Position numbers and translations under genes: made by a program | NCBI GenBank assembly: GCA_012032775.1 | Contig: JAAUQO010000023.1 | Span: 1-42,610, forward strand | DNA from: Oscillochloris sp. | Lineage (GTDB): Bacteria; Chloroflexota; Chloroflexia; Chloroflexales; Chloroflexaceae | Direction of reading: 5' to 3' | Length of the DNA stretch: 42,610 nt | Notes under the pieces: model-generated | Databases searched by the model: none | The model's input: only the letters and a program-made list of their open reading frames with translations | Told to the model about the DNA's origin: nothing | Part shown: positions 32,272 to 40,913 of the stretch, one piece after another | How positions within the stretch are numbered: position 1 is the first letter of the stretch | Layout: each line of letters opens with the position of its first letter

Positions 32272-33117
32272 TTATTTCCCTTCCTGGTGCTTAAACCAGC
32301 GAGTGATCAATGCGATAATCTCGTCGGCGCTCTCCTCGATCGAGTGATCGGTGAGATTCACCATCGCCCAGCCCTGCCGCCGGTATAGCCGCTTCGCCCA
32401 CTCAACCTCTTCTTCGGCAGCATTCATATCGGTGTAGCGTTGCCCGAGCGAGACACCGATACGCCGCTGCCGCCAGCGCCGCCGTGCCGTAATCTGCTCC
32501 GCATCGACGAACAGGCCGATCACGCGTCGGCGATCCAGTTGCAGCAACTCCTTCGGCGGCGGGATGTCTTTTACCAGTGGGATGTTCGCTACTTTCCAGC
32601 CCATCACCGCCAGGTACATGCTTAGCGGCGTTTTCCCGGATCGCGAAATACCCACCAGCACAATCTCGGCCTGGTCGAGATCAATCACGCCTGCCCCATC
32701 GTCGTGACGCATCGTGAATTCGATCGCCTCCAGCCGGTCGAAATGGGTCGCTCGGCGTTGGTGGTAAAGCCCCGGCTTTCCAACCGGATCTTTGCCGAAG
32801 GCCGTCGCTAGGCGCGATAAAACTGTGCCTACAAGATCAACCTCAACCACATTGTAGTCACGGGCCTGGCGCATCAGTTCGCGGCGTAACGCCGTTTCCA
32901 TCAGGGTGTGCAGAATCGTGCCGCCATTGGACGCCGCCTTTTGCACAACCTCGATCACTTGTTGTGATTCGCGGACATTCGGTACAATAATCACCGGCAC
33001 GTCGGTCTCTTCAAATTGTGAAAGCGCCAGGCGCGCGATCTGCTCGCCTACCGTTCCAATCCCGCCGGAGACCACATACACGGGCGCCGCCAGCGCAACC
33101 TCTTCGTCTGGACTCAT
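32272..33117 (-). CDS. Pyruvate,water/phosphate dikinase regulatory protein (DUF299 kinase-pyrophosphorylase)
   Basis: A 281-residue cytoplasmic protein of the DUF299 family, whose members switch PEP synthase or pyruvate phosphate dikinase off by ADP-dependent phosphorylation and on by phosphate-dependent dephosphorylation. Matching parts are YVVSGGIGTVGEQIARLAL, the P-loop VGISRSGKTPLSMYLA, GWKVANIPLV, and GLFVDAEQI..RR. Length is typical. AAGGAG at 33126-33131 supports the ATG. It would control the pyruvate-PEP branch point; whether PEP synthase or PPDK is the target cannot be told, as neither gene is in the window. Confidence 0.9.
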   Translation of the reverse strand: MSPDEEVALAAPVYVVSGGIGTVGEQIARLALSQFEETDVPVIIVPNVRESQQVIEVVQKAASNGGTILHTLMETALRRELMRQARDYNVVEVDLVGTVLSRLATAFGKDPVGKPGLYHQRRATHFDRLEAIEFTMRHDDGAGVIDLDQAEIVLVGISRSGKTPLSMYLAVMGWKVANIPLVKDIPPPKELLQLDRRRVIGLFVDAEQITARRRWRQRRIGVSLGQRYTDMNAAEEEVEWAKRLYRRQGWAMVNLTDHSIEESADEIIALITRWFKHQEGK

Positions 33118-33310: not shown

Positions 33311-34708
33311 ATGGCGACCTACACGATTGACGGGGTTCGGATCTATGCCCGTGAAGAAGGCCGCAAGAACGCTCAGTTGGCGGTGCTTATCCATGGCTGG
33401 AGTAGTTCATGGTATGCGCTCTCGCCGCTGATCGATCTGCTCAGCCGGCGCTTTCGGGTGTTGGCGGTAGATTTGCCCGGCTACGGCAATTCCGAACGCC
33501 TCCGCGAGCGTACCACCATCCCACGCTACGCCGATCTGCTCGCCGAGTTGATCCGTGAGCAGACGGAAAGCCCGGTGGTGCTGGTTGGGCATTCGATGGG
33601 CGGTATGACTAGTATCAACCTGGCCCTTCAGTATCCGCAACTGATCGAACGTATGGTGCTGCTTTGCCCAACGATCAGCGGGCATCTCAGCACCTACATC
33701 GAACTCTTCATTTCACCGATTACGATAATCGAGCGCTATCCGATCGCGGGGCGGATTGTGAGTGGTTTGGAACCGTATATGGTGCGCGTCACCGACCGTT
33801 TGATGCGCCCGGCCTCGTTTGCCGAACGCACCGGGATCACCCAGGCCGATTACGAGCGGCTGCGCGCCGATGCCCGCCGTCCTGGTCAGGGCCGGGTGCG
33901 GGCCGAGTGCTACTGGGCGATGCGCGAAAACGATCTGCGCGGGCGTTTGCATCAACTTGAAACCCCGGCTCTGGTGATCTGGGGTGCTGAAGATAATACG
34001 GTGCCGCTGCGCGATGCCGGTGTGGTGGCTGATGAGTGGCGCAACGTCGATCTGCGGATCATCCCAAAGGCCGGACACTGGCCCCAGTTCGAGGCGCCCG
34101 AGATTACTCGGCGCTACCTGGCTTCATACCTTGGTTTGCCGGTGATCACGACCAGCATCGAGGATTCGTCCAATCCCACCGAGGTTGTCAGTCGCGCGGC
34201 GGCGTTTCTTGCCAATTCCGATGTCGGCAACCGCCTGACGTTGCAACAGCGCACCCGTCTGGCTGCGCAGTGTCGGGTGCGGGTTTTCACAGCCGGTGAT
34301 CTGATCGCGGCCGTGAATGAGGAAAGCACCGATCTGATGGTGGTTCAGGATGGCTCGATCGAGGTGCTGTTCCCCGACGACAGTGAGATGCCCGGCGAGA
34401 GCCGGTTGTTACAGACGGTGCTGCCCGGCCAGATCACCGGCGAAATGTCGTTGCTCGACGGTGCCCGGCGTAGCGCCGAGTTGCGCGCCGGCCCCGATGG
34501 TGCTACCGTGTTGATCCTACGCCGTGATCGGTTGCTGGCTTTGCTTGAGGATGATCCGCAGCTCGGCAATCTGGTGGTCTGGAATATCGCCACGGCACTG
34601 GCATTACGGCTGCGATTGGCAAACTGGCAGCAACAGATGCTTGCCAACGAATTGCGGAGCGTACGCGCTTCCGATCCAACTTCCGGAGTTTCCTATGGCA
34701 ACGATTGA
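33311..34708 (+). CDS. Alpha/beta hydrolase fused to a cyclic-nucleotide-binding domain
   Basis: A 465-residue protein. Residues 1-280 are an alpha/beta hydrolase: oxyanion HGW motif (LIHGWSSSWYALSPL), nucleophile Ser95 in GHSMGG, acid Asp228 (WGAEDNTVP) and base His256 (KAGHWPQF). Residues about 300-445 form a CAP/cNMP-binding barrel with a well-kept phosphate-binding cassette, GEMSLLDGARRSAEL, including the Glu and Arg that contact cyclic nucleotides. No DNA-binding domain follows. The hydrolase may therefore be gated by cAMP or cGMP; this is inference. The hydrolase half is closely similar to the C-terminal domain of the minus-strand gene at 37047-39557. GAGG at 33302-33305 precedes the ATG. 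The stop overlaps the next gene by 14 nt. The substrate is unknown. Confidence 0.88.
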   Translation: MATYTIDGVRIYAREEGRKNAQLAVLIHGWSSSWYALSPLIDLLSRRFRVLAVDLPGYGNSERLRERTTIPRYADLLAELIREQTESPVVLVGHSMGGMTSINLALQYPQLIERMVLLCPTISGHLSTYIELFISPITIIERYPIAGRIVSGLEPYMVRVTDRLMRPASFAERTGITQADYERLRADARRPGQGRVRAECYWAMRENDLRGRLHQLETPALVIWGAEDNTVPLRDAGVVADEWRNVDLRIIPKAGHWPQFEAPEITRRYLASYLGLPVITTSIEDSSNPTEVVSRAAAFLANSDVGNRLTLQQRTRLAAQCRVRVFTAGDLIAAVNEESTDLMVVQDGSIEVLFPDDSEMPGESRLLQTVLPGQITGEMSLLDGARRSAELRAGPDGATVLILRRDRLLALLEDDPQLGNLVVWNIATALALRLRLANWQQQMLANELRSVRASDPTSGVSYGND

Positions 34709-35108
34709 ACACAATCAACCGACATTTAGCCGGGTCGCAACCCTGCTGAGTGGTGATGTAACGGCGTTTCTGGTGTTTGCCGCGATCGGCAGGCGCTCGC
34801 ATGGCGAGGCGGCCGGGCTTGCTGCGCTGGGCGAAGTGGCGCTTACTGCGGCGCCGTTTCTCGCCGCGTGGTTGTTGGCCTCGCCCTGGCTAGGCGCCTA
34901 CAACCCGCGTCGTACCGGCGCACCCGCGATGCTGCGGATCGTTGTGCTCGGCTGGCTCCTGGCACTGCCGATCGGCGCTGTCTTGCGGGCAGCGATTGTC
35001 GGGCGCTTCAGCCCGCCCTCGTTCTACATTGTGACGTTTCTGGCGGTTCTGGTGATCCTGGGCGCTTGGCGCACCACTTACGGCTGGCTTGAAGCGCGGC
35101 GGCGGTAG
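34695..35108 (+). CDS. DUF3054 family membrane protein
   Basis: A 137-residue protein with four predicted transmembrane helices and the DUF3054 pattern: GDVTAFLVFAAIGRRSHGE near the N terminus, then APFLAAWLLASPWLGAY, VVLGWLLALPIGAVLRAA and FYIVTFLAVLVILGAWRTTYGW. The role of this family is unknown. The ATG at 34695 with GGAG at 34685-34688 lies inside the end of the hydrolase-cNMP gene (14-nt overlap), so the two are co-translated. The longer open frame upstream (to 34524) overlaps coding sequence in another frame and is not used. Confidence 0.8.
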   Translation: MATIEHNQPTFSRVATLLSGDVTAFLVFAAIGRRSHGEAAGLAALGEVALTAAPFLAAWLLASPWLGAYNPRRTGAPAMLRIVVLGWLLALPIGAVLRAAIVGRFSPPSFYIVTFLAVLVILGAWRTTYGWLEARRR

Positions 35109-35145
35109 AGGCTGAGCAGGTTCAGCCCCACCGCCACATTTCTTT
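35101..35145. terminator. Composite terminator after DUF3054
   Basis: Nested stems GGCGGT/ACCGCC (35101-35106 with 35130-35135) and GGCTGA/TCAGCC (35110-35115 with 35122-35127) around the DUF3054 stop, followed by ACATTTCTTT. It sits between convergent genes and may serve both. Confidence 0.6.
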
Positions 35146-36880
35146 ACTGACAAATGAGCGCGGGAATGCGGCCCAGCCGCAGCACATCTTCCACCGCCGA
35201 GCCGATCATCAAGCCGCTGAGTTGATTCTTGCCGTAGCCGCCCATCACAATCAATTCGGCGCACGCCTCCTCGGCCGCCGCCAGAATCGCCGGCCCCGCT
35301 GAACCGTCGCCGCGCACAAATGCAATATCGGTGACACCGTGTTCCTGCAGGTACGCACGCGCCTGCAACCGCGGCCCCTCGATCCCGCGCCCATCCTCCG
35401 ATACCGTCAGCACGGTTACCGGATAGTGCCAACGTGCCGCCAGGTAGGTCGCCAGATACAGCGCTTCGTTCGATTTGGCGCTGCCGTCGTAGGCCAGCAA
35501 CAGCCGGGTAAGCTGATTGATCGGTTGCGGCACCGTCAGAACCGGGCGAATCGAGCTGCGGATCAACCCTGTCAGACTCGATGTCAGCCGAGCCAATGGG
35601 TTCGGGCCGGGCGGATGCCGGATCTGAATTGCCACCAGATCGGCCCAGCGACTGCGGTCGCGGATGCAGCGTGCCACCGGGCCGTCGTCGATCGCCATCT
35701 GGCCGGCTACGCCTGCTTCGGCGCAGCGCCGCGCGAACTCTTCCTGAACCGCTAATGCCTGCGGGGCGTTCCGCTGGGTCGCTGTCGGCACCACATGCAG
35801 ACCAAGCAGTTTCGCGCCTTCGCGTTGGGCAACCGCAAGCGATTGCTCAAGTGCCGCCCAACCGTCGGGTTGCCCGTTCACCGGCACCAGAATGTCGCGG
35901 AACAGCCATGTATCGCTGCGCAGGGGCTGTGCCTGGCGCCAGTTACCGGTTGGTGGGCCGCTGTCCAGATTGTCGGGGATCACCATCTCCAACATGTGCT
36001 CGCCGGTGCGGCGCACCTGATCCAGCGAGTCGCAGCCTTTGCGCTCGGCCAGATCGTCTGCCGCGCGATCGGTCGTTACATCCCAGCCAAGGTGCTCCTG
36101 TAACTCGGCGCGATGTTCAGCCAACCAGAGGTACAGATCCGCCTCGGTGCGGCCGGGAAACTCCCGTAGCAGCCCCCGCTCGCGGATCAACTGCGCGATC
36201 GGCAGATACACCGTATCGTACCAACTGACGGCGGCTTCTTCCGGTGGTACCGGCTGCTGCAACTCCAGGCCGCGATAATAGCCATGCACTTCGATATGCT
36301 CGCGTAGATTGGCGTACTGGCCTGGTGCAGTCAGCGCCATGTCACTTGTGGGGCGGCTCTCATCGAGTTTGGCCCACTCTAGAAATGCCGCCTGTTCGCC
36401 GCGCAGAATCAAGTCGTCGGCGTTGTCGGCGGGGGTGAGTGAGACGCGGGTGCGGAACGGTAACACATAGGCCTGGATCATCGTGGCGCCGTTCTGGCGC
36501 GCCACCGACACCCGATGGTTGCCGTCGGCCACAAAGTAGGCATCGCCGATCTGATACACTTCGATCGGCGGCAGCCCGCTGAAATCGTTGCTGGCCAGCA
36601 TAACCCGTGCCCAACGGCCTTCGTCGCTGTCCTGGCGCGGCAAAAAACCGCGCGTAAAATCGTGATACCGCCCGACACTCCCTACAATTGCGTCTAAGGG
36701 AATCTCACGTAGCTGGTGATCGGAGCTGGCGGTGGCTCGTAACCGGCGACGGATTTCCTCAAACGGCAATAGATCAGCCGAATGCCCGCGTATGCGCGCC
36801 AACAGGCGTTCGATATCAGCCTGACGGCGCAGGCGGCGAAAATCGGCCACCGCCGCCGCAAGCTGACTCATTTGCGTCAT
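35144..36880 (-). CDS. ParB-like domain fused to two universal stress domains
   Basis: A 578-residue cytoplasmic protein. After a helical N terminus, residues about 58-150 look like a ParB/sulfiredoxin-type nuclease-like domain (LREIPLDAIVGSVGR and the motif VADGNHRVSVAR). A middle region (about 190-310) contains FPGRTEADLYLWLAEHRAEL, seen in DUF4032-like proteins. Two universal-stress-protein domains follow (about 328-445 and 450-578); the second has the ATP-binding pattern GGYGKNQLSGLMIGSAVEDV. The start MTQMSQL at 36880 is supported by AAAGGGG with 5 nt spacing; the longer frame to 37099 runs through hairpins. It may be an ATP-sensing regulator; the target of the ParB-like part is unknown. 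Confidence 0.82.
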   Translation of the reverse strand: MTQMSQLAAAVADFRRLRRQADIERLLARIRGHSADLLPFEEIRRRLRATASSDHQLREIPLDAIVGSVGRYHDFTRGFLPRQDSDEGRWARVMLASNDFSGLPPIEVYQIGDAYFVADGNHRVSVARQNGATMIQAYVLPFRTRVSLTPADNADDLILRGEQAAFLEWAKLDESRPTSDMALTAPGQYANLREHIEVHGYYRGLELQQPVPPEEAAVSWYDTVYLPIAQLIRERGLLREFPGRTEADLYLWLAEHRAELQEHLGWDVTTDRAADDLAERKGCDSLDQVRRTGEHMLEMVIPDNLDSGPPTGNWRQAQPLRSDTWLFRDILVPVNGQPDGWAALEQSLAVAQREGAKLLGLHVVPTATQRNAPQALAVQEEFARRCAEAGVAGQMAIDDGPVARCIRDRSRWADLVAIQIRHPPGPNPLARLTSSLTGLIRSSIRPVLTVPQPINQLTRLLLAYDGSAKSNEALYLATYLAARWHYPVTVLTVSEDGRGIEGPRLQARAYLQEHGVTDIAFVRGDGSAGPAILAAAEEACAELIVMGGYGKNQLSGLMIGSAVEDVLRLGRIPALICQ

Positions 36881-36890
36881 AGTTTCCCCT

Positions 36891-36927
36891 TTTTTCGTTT
36901 TGCCGGTTGTGCCGCCAAAACGAAAAA
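36891..36927 (-). promoter_or_regulatory. AU-rich hairpin against the Shine-Dalgarno sequence of the ParB-USP gene
   Basis: TTTTTCGTTTTG (36891-36902) and CAAAACGAAAAA (36916-36927) form a perfect 12-bp stem with a 13-nt loop. On the minus-strand mRNA the 3' arm ends next to AAGGGG. An AU-rich stem touching the ribosome site is typical of thermosensor-like or translational control elements; this is inference. Confidence 0.45.
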
Positions 36928-37006
36928 CCGATCTTCGCTGCAACCCTTTCGGAAAAGTATAGCATGGGCCTCTGCCCTGAGGGCGGACGCGGGGCCGAAT
37001 CCACTG

Positions 37007-37040
37007 TGAGGTTCGGCGCACTGACGTGCGCCAAACCTCA
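37007..37040 (-). terminator. Hairpin after the sensory hydrolase gene
   Basis: A 14-bp stem with one mismatch (37007-37020 with 37027-37040) and a 6-nt loop, 6 nt downstream of the stop at 37047 on the minus strand. No T-tract follows, so termination would be partial or factor-assisted. Confidence 0.55.
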
Positions 37041-37046
37041 CAAGGA

Positions 37047-39557
37047 TTAGAATCCGGCTCGCAGGAGTTTGAGCGGGGTGCTGAGGAAGCCGCGTACATA
37101 GCGACTGGTTAAGTCGGGGGTTTCGAATTGCGGCCAATGGCCTGCTTTGGGGATCACACGCAACTCGGCCTGCGGCCATTCATCGGCCACCACACTTGCG
37201 TCGCGTAGCGGCACGGTGTTGTCCTCCATGCCCCACACTACCAGCGACGGGATGCTGATTGCGCCGAGCCGCCCGCGCAGGTCGTTCGCCTGCATGGCAC
37301 TGTAGCACTCGGCTCGTACTCGGCCCTGGCCGGGGCGGCGGGCATCGGCGCGCAGCCGCTCGTAATCGGCCTGATTGATCCCGGTGCGCTCGGCAAACGA
37401 GGCCGGACGCATCAAGCGGTCGGTGACGCGCATCATATACGGTTCCAAACCACTCACAATCCGCCCGGCAATCCGTGATCGTTCCAGGAGCGTGATCGGC
37501 GAGATAAAGGTCTTGATCCAGAACGACAGGTTCCCGCTAATCGTTGGACAGAGCAAGACCATACGCTCGACCAGTTCCGGATGGCGTAGCGCCATGGTCA
37601 GGCTGATCATACCGCCCATCGAATGCCCGATCAGCACCGCCGGTTGCTCCGGACTCAGTTGCCGAATCAAATTGGATAGCAGATCGGCGTAATCAGGGAT
37701 GGTGGTGCGATTCGGCAAGCGCGGCGAGTCGCCGTAACCCGGCAGATCGACCGCCACACAGCGGTAACGATCGCGCAATGTCGTCATCAGCGGCGAGAGC
37801 GCATACCATGAACTGCTCCAACCATGCAGCAGCAACAAGAGCCGGCGCCGCTCGTTTCCCTGCATCCGCACGACAATCCGCTGGTCGCCGACCATCACCT
37901 CGGCTCGCTCCGGACCGCCGCTGCTGCGTCGTGTTGCTGGAAGCGCTTGCTCAGTCGCTTCGGCGCCGGCCTCGTTCGCGCTCCGCAACTGTCGCGACTT
38001 CTCCTGAATCTGCTGGAAAAACGGCGTATTCGTGATCGAAGCGACTTCGCGCTCCTTGCGGGCCTGATCGACTTCGATCTGGAGATCGGCGATCTCTTCG
38101 CGCAGTTGTTGTTCACGGGCGTAGGCCGAGAGTGCCGCCGCCGCCAGGGCGCCCAGCGACTCCAACATCTGTTCGGCGATCTCATCAAACGGGATTACCT
38201 CGCCGGCTTCATTATGTGCGTTCAACAGTTGCAACACACCGATCACCCGGTCTAGCCCGTCCTTGAGCGGCAAGGTCAGCAGCGAGGTGGTTTTGTAGCC
38301 GGTTCGATGATCGAAGTCACGCGTGCCGGAGAAGTCGAAGCCCTCGGCATGATAGGCATCGGCGATATTGATCGTCTTGCCGTCGAGGGTAACGTGGGTC
38401 ACCACATAGGTGTGTAACGGCGCGCCACTATGCTCATCGTAAAGCCGCAGCGGGGGGAAGGGAATATCTTTCCCGCTTGCGCCGCCCATGGCAATATTCA
38501 ATGTTCGGTTACGCACGATCACAAAGCGCAGGCGTTGATCTTCAGTTTTCAGGTAGAGCGTGCCGCCATCGGCGCGACAGAGATTCTGCGCCTCGACCAC
38601 GATCCGCTCTAACAGCGCATTGAAATCCTTCTCGACCGAAAGCGCCACCCCGATCGGGATAACGACATGGAGCAGATCATCGGCCCGCCGGCGCTCTTGT
38701 TCGATCCGCTTGAGATAGGCGACTTCCAGATCACGCAGGTGCTTCTTGAACAGACATGCGCTGATACGTGCTTTCAGCAGCACCGGATCGAATGGCTTCG
38801 GCAGATAATCGTCGGCGCCCAGTTCCACGGCGCGCACCACACTCGCCATATCGTCGAGTGCCGAAAGCACAATCACCGGAATGCGCCTCAACTCCGTATC
38901 GGAACGCATCTCCTGCAACACGGCATAGCCGTCCATCACCGGCATCATCAGATCGAGCAATACCAGATCGAAGGATGCGCTCCGCAAGCGATCAAGCGCC
39001 TGCCGGCCATCACCGGCCGTGGTTACCGGATACCCCAGGCGTTCCAGGCGGCGCACCAGCATCTCGCGGTTGAGTTCATTATCGTCAACCAACAGCAGGT
39101 GCCCGCTCTCACTTCCGTCGATCATTGTCAGAGGCGATTCCGGTTCGTATTCCGCTTCAACTTCGATGCTGCGCGGAAGGCTTGCGGTAAGCTCGTCGAG
39201 GCGTGTCGCCGCCTGAACAATTTTCTCCAGATCGGCGGCTCGTTCGGCGTCGCCCGCGAGCAATGCCTGTTGGCGTACCACGCTGATAGTTGTGATCGTA
39301 GCCGCGATATGTGGGGTAACCTGCTGATGAAGTTGTTGCAGCGCCTGGATACCGTTGTGTTCGCTGCCGTTTAGTCCGGTTTGAATCGCCTGCAGCATTG
39401 CATGACCGTATTGCACGGCCAGATTCAGGGCGTTGCGGTCGGCTTCCGCAGTTGACTCATCTTCGAGCAGCATTTCACTGTACCCGATAATATGATTTAC
39501 CGGCGTACGTAATTCGTGACGTAGAAGCTGAAGGGTCGGCGCGTGTTCCGTATCCAT
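37047..39557 (-). CDS. HisKA-like, receiver, GAF and alpha/beta hydrolase fusion
   Basis: An 836-residue protein. Residues 8-75 resemble a histidine-kinase dimerisation helix with His14 (LLRHELRTPVNHIIGYSE), but no ATPase domain follows. Residues about 152-270 are a receiver with Asp158/Asp159, phospho-acceptor Asp202 (LLDLMMPVMDG) and Lys254. A GAF domain (about 300-478, GYKTTSLLTLPL and DRVIGVLQLLNA) resembles those before cyclase domains. A coiled coil (480-525) leads to an alpha/beta hydrolase (about 553-836) with HGWSSSWY, Ser646 in GHSMGG, WGMEDNTVP and AGHWPQF. In this layout an output cyclase is replaced by a hydrolase. The start at 39557 (MDTEHAPT) is favoured over 39623 by AGGA at 39563-39566 and homology. 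The substrate is unknown. Confidence 0.88.
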   Translation of the reverse strand: MDTEHAPTLQLLRHELRTPVNHIIGYSEMLLEDESTAEADRNALNLAVQYGHAMLQAIQTGLNGSEHNGIQALQQLHQQVTPHIAATITTISVVRQQALLAGDAERAADLEKIVQAATRLDELTASLPRSIEVEAEYEPESPLTMIDGSESGHLLLVDDNELNREMLVRRLERLGYPVTTAGDGRQALDRLRSASFDLVLLDLMMPVMDGYAVLQEMRSDTELRRIPVIVLSALDDMASVVRAVELGADDYLPKPFDPVLLKARISACLFKKHLRDLEVAYLKRIEQERRRADDLLHVVIPIGVALSVEKDFNALLERIVVEAQNLCRADGGTLYLKTEDQRLRFVIVRNRTLNIAMGGASGKDIPFPPLRLYDEHSGAPLHTYVVTHVTLDGKTINIADAYHAEGFDFSGTRDFDHRTGYKTTSLLTLPLKDGLDRVIGVLQLLNAHNEAGEVIPFDEIAEQMLESLGALAAAALSAYAREQQLREEIADLQIEVDQARKEREVASITNTPFFQQIQEKSRQLRSANEAGAEATEQALPATRRSSGGPERAEVMVGDQRIVVRMQGNERRRLLLLLHGWSSSWYALSPLMTTLRDRYRCVAVDLPGYGDSPRLPNRTTIPDYADLLSNLIRQLSPEQPAVLIGHSMGGMISLTMALRHPELVERMVLLCPTISGNLSFWIKTFISPITLLERSRIAGRIVSGLEPYMMRVTDRLMRPASFAERTGINQADYERLRADARRPGQGRVRAECYSAMQANDLRGRLGAISIPSLVVWGMEDNTVPLRDASVVADEWPQAELRVIPKAGHWPQFETPDLTSRYVRGFLSTPLKLLRAGF

Positions 39558-39821
39558 AGCCCATCCTGTCCCGGTTGATATGAGCGTGCGGGCCGGTATA
39601 GGATAAACGCCGGTTGTTACCATCTATAGCATAGTCGCGCGGTATCCCACCCTGAAACGGAATATTCGCGCGGGCTGCCCTATGGAACCCACGGAACAAA
39701 TACACGATTTATCTTCGGGTAGGACTTACAAGCTATGGTTCTCTCAGGGAAGGTAGGGTAAACTGGTAATAATCTGTGCAAAAGATGAACAATTTATGTT
39801 AGTCCGTGTGAGGAGCGCGCA

Positions 39822-40913
39822 ATGGATATTTCACTCTACCGAACCATCCCGCCCGAGGCCGGTAATGCTGTTTTTGTGAACAGCGTGTCGTTGATGAATG
39901 TGATCAGCCATGAGATCGAGGATGTGGTGATTAACAATCAGCTGCCGGTGGATTTCTATGCCGGGTTCCAGCGGTTCTCGTTCTTCTTGCGGCAGGTGCC
40001 GCGCTATCGCAAATTGGCGGCTGTCTGTCGGCGCATTTATGTGTGGGGAGTGCCCGATGTCGATCCGCCGGCGATTCCCGGCATCGAATATATCCCGCTT
40101 GCCCCAGATGCGGAACTGGCCCGCGAATGGTTTCTTGTGGTTGATACCCCGCAGTTTTATACGGCGCTTCTTACCCGCGAGGAGAGCTTCGGCCTGGATC
40201 TGCCGAAAGACGCCCGTCGTTTTCGTGGGATCTGGACGTACGAGCCGGAGCTGGTTGGCCGGGCCTATTTGCTGATCTCGCAGATCCTCGGCCGAAATTT
40301 CGCCCCCCACAACCAACGCCTCTATGAGCACCAGAATCGTTATATTGTCGAGATCTCCAATCGCCTGGTGAAGCGCCAGGATCTTGTTGATCAGGCGGTA
40401 CGACGGGTAACCCTGTTGCAACATGGCATTGCCGCCGGATCCTCGCCGCTGCTGGTGCTCGATGCGATGCGTTCGGTGATCGGCGCCAGCGAATCGGCTG
40501 CGGCGATCCTGGGCATGGCGGTTCCCACCGTGGTCGGTCAGTCGATCGAGCAGCTTGCCGGTGGCGTGCTTGCCGATCTGGATCTGTCTGATCCCGCCGC
40601 CCGCAAGCAGTTTCTCTCGGCCGATCGCGCTGTCATCGATGTGCATCCACTGCCGATCACCAACAAGTATGGCGATGTGATCGGCTATGTGATTGTGATG
40701 CGCGGCGAATATGCGCCGGTGATTCTGGCGCCGGAAAACGGCGTCGATCGCCAGATGTTGCAGCGCTATCTAGCCGGCGTTAACCAGCTCTTAACCATGA
40801 TGCCATCATTGGTTAGTCGGCCTGAAGTGCAACTACGGGCCATCAATCAGATTCAGCGCATGCTTGATGAATTGGGCGATCGAACCCAACTTCCGTCCGG
40901 TCGCGTAAGTTAA
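39822..40913 (+). CDS. DICT-domain sensory protein with PAS-like C terminus
   Basis: A 363-residue cytoplasmic protein. Residues about 1-165 match the DICT sensory domain, found in cyanobacterial and Chloroflexota signalling proteins (FQRFSFFLRQVPRYRKLAAVC, RIYVWGVPDVDPPAI, EWFLVVDTPQFYTALLTRE). A helical linker (EHQNRYIVEISNRLVKRQDL) precedes a PAS-like domain (about 205-300, PLLVLDAMRSVIGASESAAAILG, DVIGYVIVMRGEY), and the last 60 residues are helical. There is no kinase, cyclase or DNA-binding output, so it must act through a partner. GAGGAG at 39810-39815 with 6 nt spacing sets the ATG. A second DICT protein follows 490 nt downstream. Confidence 0.82.
   Translation: MDISLYRTIPPEAGNAVFVNSVSLMNVISHEIEDVVINNQLPVDFYAGFQRFSFFLRQVPRYRKLAAVCRRIYVWGVPDVDPPAIPGIEYIPLAPDAELAREWFLVVDTPQFYTALLTREESFGLDLPKDARRFRGIWTYEPELVGRAYLLISQILGRNFAPHNQRLYEHQNRYIVEISNRLVKRQDLVDQAVRRVTLLQHGIAAGSSPLLVLDAMRSVIGASESAAAILGMAVPTVVGQSIEQLAGGVLADLDLSDPAARKQFLSADRAVIDVHPLPITNKYGDVIGYVIVMRGEYAPVILAPENGVDRQMLQRYLAGVNQLLTMMPSLVSRPEVQLRAINQIQRMLDELGDRTQLPSGRVS

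Follow-up and report, generated by a model that had tools for sequence, protein, structure and literature searches.

Proteins of the Rv1900c/LipJ type are fusions of an alpha/beta hydrolase with a cyclase, and patatin lipases of the PNPLA6/7 type carry cyclic-nucleotide-binding (CNB) domains. Signalling by the hydrolase RsbQ depends on its catalytic triad, and RsbQ-PAS modules couple to diverse outputs (PMC3183031). Here, we describe two alpha/beta hydrolases fused to sensory domains, which we call type A and type B, encoded within 33,311-39,623 of a 42,610-nucleotide stretch of Oscillochloris sp. (assembly GCA_012032775.1, contig JAAUQO010000023.1, positions 1 to 42,610; "the window"). Pfam searches and homologues indicate that both open reading frames are real and conserved and have the domain make-up given in a preliminary description of this DNA, namely a CNB-hydrolase and a HisKA-like/receiver/GAF-hydrolase. 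We consider it probable that they are two ancient hydrolases serving separate circuits: type A would be switched by its CNB domain, and type B would ride on a sensor whose coiled-coil tail partners a MinD/ParA-like ATPase. Within open-access papers, literature searches found no prior description of such fusions or of the tail/ATPase pair.

The type A protein and its parts are:

33311..34708, + strand: type A protein, 465 residues, alpha/beta hydrolase fused to a CNB domain (Pfam; same architecture in 58 homologues; AlphaFold2 mean predicted local distance difference test score (pLDDT) 81.6)
33311..34132, + strand: hydrolase domain with triad S95 (33593-33595), D228 (33992-33994) and H256 (34076-34078)
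34268..34669, + strand: CNB barrel at residues 320-414, then a long C-helix at 416-453 (Pfam; predicted structure)
34439..34477, + strand: phosphate-binding cassette GEMSLLDGARRSA (alignment of 58 CNB fusions)

Pfam matched the product of 33311-34708(+) to Abhydrolase_1 (E=4.3e-31) and cNMP_binding (E=1.2e-10), and a CNB domain was found in all 58 CNB fusions scanned. The preliminary description had judged the catalytic triads complete and the CNB cassette intact. Both judgements are borne out by the homologues: S95, D228 and H256, which were assigned from motifs, are invariant in 58/58 CNB fusions, and so are G377, E378, R387 and A389 of the cassette (G377-E378...R387-S/T388-A389), with Ser or Thr at 388 in every case. 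The predicted structure consists of a complete hydrolase, a short linker, the CNB barrel and a 38-residue C-helix, and neither this model nor Pfam places a DNA-binding domain after the CNB domain. Self-contained and conserved from Chloroflexus to Anaerolineae, the fusion is a candidate for a cyclic AMP (cAMP)-controlled enzyme outside transcription. Binding of cAMP or a similar nucleotide to the CNB domain would shift the C-helix and alter hydrolase activity; the class III cyclases of this genome (24 matches) could be the source of cAMP. Foldseek matches of the type A hydrolase are esterase-type alpha/beta hydrolases, its structural and sequence neighbours being esterases, polyhydroxybutyrate depolymerase and C-C hydrolases at ~17-28% identity. 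The unusual conservation of its cap (the DARRPGQGRVRAEC region) suggests one particular substrate.

The type B protein and its parts are:

37047..39623, - strand: type B protein, 858 residues (836 from the conserved start at 39557), with HisKA-like, receiver, GAF, coiled-coil tail and alpha/beta hydrolase parts (Pfam; alignment of 13)
39183..39542, - strand: HisKA-like region of four predicted N-terminal helices (residues 28-147) with an RHELRTP H-box (HisKA in 11/13; model mostly pLDDT 64-93)
38763..39095, - strand: receiver domain with invariant Asp224 (Pfam E=7e-30; alignment of 13)
38130..38624, - strand: GAF domain (Pfam E=6.3e-11; in 13/13)
37980..38135, - strand: 53-residue coiled-coil tail module (profile match E=9.7e-26; co-occurrence with a MinD-like ATPase)
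37077..37901, - strand: type B hydrolase domain with diagnostic M/S/R residues and a FLSTPLKLL end (alignment; tree)

Pfam places HisKA at residues 34-78, a match exactly at its cut-off, Response_reg at 177-287, GAF at 334-498 and Abhydrolase_1 at 595-835. As all 13 homologues share Met23 (codon 39555-39557), translation probably starts at 39557, in agreement with the preliminary description. Receiver and GAF domains are present in 13/13 receiver fusions and HisKA in 11/13, and the HisKA-like helices of the type B protein have no ATPase domain beside them. S668, D801 and H829, the equivalents of the type A triad, and the receiver Asp224 are invariant in all 13, where the hydrolase is always C-terminal, as in a response regulator with an enzymatic output.

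Of the parts of the type B protein, the coiled-coil tail, which the preliminary description did not mention, is the most informative. A query made of the GAF domain and the coiled coil retrieved the same region without a hydrolase in membrane HAMP-GAF proteins, and the tail is common to many unrelated Chloroflexota sensors, where it ends CNB, receiver, HisKA-receiver-HAMP, HAMP and ECF-like membrane proteins. A MinD/ParA-like ATPase gene adjoins most of the tail-bearing genes. Searching 158 genomes of the class with a coiled-coil profile, we found the tail in 40 and the MinD-like ATPase in 37, all 37 of them tail-bearing. In 400 sampled genomes of the phylum, a set that overlaps the first and so is not independent of it, 51 have the tail, 49 the ATPase and 48 both; in 39 of these 48, this genome not among them, the tail lies no more than 10 kb from the ATPase gene. 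The two also vary together within a family: 22 Chloroflexaceae genomes have tail and ATPase, 2 the tail only and 17 neither, and the ATPase is found in 13/14 genomes with type B vs 9/27 without (p=3e-4). The present genome has a single tail, which belongs to the type B protein (E=9.7e-26), and a single MinD-like ATPase (G000:C61:60728-61477), and is one of eight receiver-fusion genomes with exactly one of each, the others being G003, G020, G031, G033, G036, G039 and G040. Gene order points the same way. In genome G085, a HisKA-receiver-HAMP-tail protein, with neither GAF nor hydrolase, is encoded 2 bp from the ATPase gene. In genomes that we take to be Herpetosiphon, the order is MinD, MinD, MFS/TLC-like, GNAT, HAMP sensor with tail, type B hydrolase, the last being a gene of its own that starts 22 bp past the tail-ending sensor. 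Outside the phylum, searching plasmids for the CNB fusion or the GAF-tail region turned up nothing but generic matches to GAF domains and hydrolases.

We take the tail as the hallmark of sensors that would partner the MinD/ParA-like ATPase, so that the ATPase is probably acted on, by way of the coiled coil, when the receiver is phosphorylated or a ligand binds GAF. A histidine kinase would phosphorylate the receiver of type B, or a ligand would occupy its GAF domain; the coiled coil would then relay the signal to the ATPase, or be recruited by it, and the hydrolase, riding along on a flexible linker, would be placed or activated there. We propose more tentatively, and with slightly less than even confidence, that tail and ATPase form the core of an undescribed Chloroflexota module, where the shared tail lets interchangeable sensors (CNB, receiver, HAMP, GAF) dock on one ATPase and the type B hydrolase is brought to that ATPase as an enzymatic output. 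If true, this would join bacterial signal sensing with MinD/ParA-type ATPases, which are usually studied apart, and would suggest a role for many orphan sensors with this tail. The near-perfect co-distribution offers a directly testable partner pair.

Several observations weigh against this account of type B and its ATPase. The co-occurrence counts ignore shared ancestry. In this genome the ATPase and type B genes are on different contigs and so do not count as lying within 10 kb, and in several other receiver-fusion genomes ATPase and hydrolase are unlinked too. Most tail sensors have no hydrolase, which makes it an optional add-on to them. The structure model of type B is weak (pLDDT 66). 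Tail and hydrolase are joined by a linker that varies across the alignment of 13 and is predicted to be disordered, so direct allostery between the two is doubtful, and tethering is favoured over rigid allostery.

Further genes lie near the ATPase gene in several genomes. Directly beside it on contig C61 of this genome is a gene for an acyl-CoA-binding protein (L216:7546-7887), and an amylosucrase-like gene also adjoins; by eye, small genes resembling the former lie beside the ATPase gene in G003, G033 and G036. In Chloroploca and G053 (L235:8476-10600, L229:3876-6742), genes for a STAS protein, an RsbW-like ATPase, a receiver-SpoIIE/PP2C phosphatase and the MinD-like ATPase are consecutive, the first three resembling an Rsb set. 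Another neighbour (L233:1913-5392) encodes a 1160-residue HEAT-repeat protein with a C-terminal CNB domain, and L227 has a similar long gene. A gene for a putative solute-binding lipoprotein of ~600 residues precedes the HAMP-GAF-tail sensors in L147, L149, L150, L152-L154, L156 and L157. We would like to point out that two records titled Gracilibacteria (L038, L072) hold Chloroflexaceae-type genes, and that the matching genome, G020, was grouped in the family of the window; the title is probably wrong.

That type A and type B serve separate circuits is consistent with their history. The preliminary description had taken them for recent paralogues on account of long identical stretches. These stretches are indeed present, but each hydrolase is nearer to its orthologues (78% for type A, 75% for type B) than the two are to each other (69%). 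A phylogenetic tree sets the 13 receiver fusions apart, on one side of a branch with a support of 99 in the Shimodaira-Hasegawa-like approximate likelihood-ratio test (SH-aLRT). When two Herpetosiphon-type free-standing genes and two contig-end fragments were added, all sensor-side hydrolases split from all CNB-fused ones (SH-aLRT 96). The subfamilies are marked by almost fully fixed residues, A226/G237/A271 in type A vs M226/S237/R271 and a C-terminal FLxxPxKLL in type B. Type A is found in Chloroflexales and Anaerolineae, and type B extends to a Herpetosiphonaceae-like family (f2) and another family (f4). By identity and tree, the two are thus not recent duplicates but ancient paralogues in two clean subfamilies. 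They are the only close members of this hydrolase family in the genome, the next best hydrolase being 32% identical. Most of their longest identical block falls in one tract:

33749..33879, + strand: putative gene-conversion tract, type A copy (125/131 nucleotides identical to 37336-37466)
37336..37466, - strand: putative gene-conversion tract, type B copy (125/131 nucleotides identical to 33749-33879)

Outside the tract, nucleotide identity is 65%, and none of 2000 codon shuffles reached the identity inside it. Sequence comparison thus points to local gene conversion between old inverted paralogues 3.5 kb apart. Among seven other genomes with both types, only G003 has something comparable, a weaker tract of 68 bp. 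The shorter identical blocks are largely conservation across the family.

The neighbouring genes are:

32272-33117, upstream of the CNB fusion: Kinase-PPPase family gene (also there in ten other Chloroflexaceae loci)
34695..35108, + strand: DUF3054 gene for a probable membrane protein (Pfam E=1.4e-24), overlapping the end of the CNB fusion gene
35144..36883, - strand: protein with ParB-like and universal stress protein (USP) parts, probable start 36883, longest open reading frame to 37099 (Pfam Usp)

At 19 other loci in Chloroflexaceae, the CNB fusion is again followed by DUF3054, which makes a link between them plausible; together with the Kinase-PPPase gene before the fusion, this shows that the CNB fusion has a conserved setting in the family. 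The ParB-like part of the ParB-USP protein has no Pfam match. Its long form occurs in about 20 genomes of the family, mostly unlinked, and beside a hydrolase only here and in G031. This distribution led us to reject it as a part of the system, and it probably lies outside. On the other side, a divergent gene with DICT and CHASE6_C domains (39822-40913) adjoins the receiver fusion. A membrane-protein gene that often accompanies that fusion in relatives, sought as a sign that the fusion gene had been translocated from its usual surroundings, could not be matched here.

With these data the alternatives to two separate circuits can be weighed. The preliminary description regarded the fusions as one recently duplicated, sensor-gated pair working with DUF3054 and ParB-USP. 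The short distance between the genes, the near-identical 131-bp tract and the recurrent DUF3054 gene would fit such a pair. Yet the paralogues are old, ParB-USP is mostly unlinked, and family counts reject a conserved pair: among 41 Chloroflexaceae genomes, type A is present in 28, type B in 14 and both in 8 (odds ratio 0.47, p=0.31), and the two genes adjoin in no genome examined other than this one. The sensory fusions, the apparent catalytic competence, the conserved architectures and a plausible place for DUF3054 survive from that proposal; recent duplication, pairing and the inclusion of ParB-USP do not, and as a whole it is largely refuted and would be a surprise if correct.

The hydrolases could instead belong to the sensing side, as in RsbQ, making or destroying a small ligand that the attached GAF or CNB domain reads, rather than being an output. 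The triad requirement of RsbQ signalling and the diverse outputs of RsbQ-PAS modules lend this some appeal (PMC3183031), as do the STAS, RsbW-like and receiver-PP2C genes near MinD in some Chloroflexia. Pfam scans, however, found no PAS match in either protein, the type B hydrolase occupies the C-terminal place of an output domain behind a variable linker, and many tail sensors lack a hydrolase; we regard this reading as rather unlikely. It is also conceivable that both are ordinary metabolic esterases, whose fused domains affect stability or location only and exert no regulation. Many plain esterases resemble them in fold and sequence, and type B stands free in Herpetosiphon. Against this, the cassette residues are invariant in 58/58 and the receiver Asp in 13/13, and the fusions have been retained in different orders and classes, which leaves plain esterases quite improbable. 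Two hydrolases in separate circuits, with type B tied to the tail and its ATPase, remains our preferred explanation.

Compared with known systems, the Rv1900c/LipJ type also joins an alpha/beta hydrolase to cyclic-nucleotide signalling, but there the partner is a cyclase and here a nucleotide receptor domain. The PNPLA6/7 lipases likewise fuse an ester hydrolase to CNB domains; their patatin catalytic fold is unrelated, and Pfam gave no patatin match here. By analogy, we see both as parallels in principle and not as relatives by test. The best sequence matches of solved structure (E ~1e-24) are meta-cleavage-product hydrolases (HsaD, BphD, MhpC), which share the fold. Nevertheless, His94 before the nucleophile Ser is invariant here and is Asn in HsaD (GNSLGG), and the type A hydrolase reached none of the curated family cut-offs, scoring 93.9 against 400 bits for HsaD, 56.9 against 462 bits for BphD and 86.7 against 172.55 bits for BchO (TIGR03056). 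Like CNB-domain receptors, type A has the cassette Glu and Arg, E378 and R387 being invariant in 58/58. The co-distributed ATPase matches the ParA/AAA_31/CbiA families as MinD/ParA proteins do. Its P-loop, FRGGTGKSN, differs in having Arg where MinD/ParA proteins usually carry the signature Lys, and its associated proteins are signal sensors. RsbQ with the PAS domain of RsbP is, by analogy, the nearest precedent for an active-triad hydrolase in signalling: in both cases an alpha/beta hydrolase with an intact triad is tied to a sensory protein by modular coupling (PMC3183031). RsbQ is, however, a separate protein with a PAS partner, an arrangement approached only by the Herpetosiphon type B hydrolase with its own gene beside the sensor, whereas in the window the hydrolases are fused to a CNB domain or to a receiver-GAF-tail sensor associated with an ATPase.

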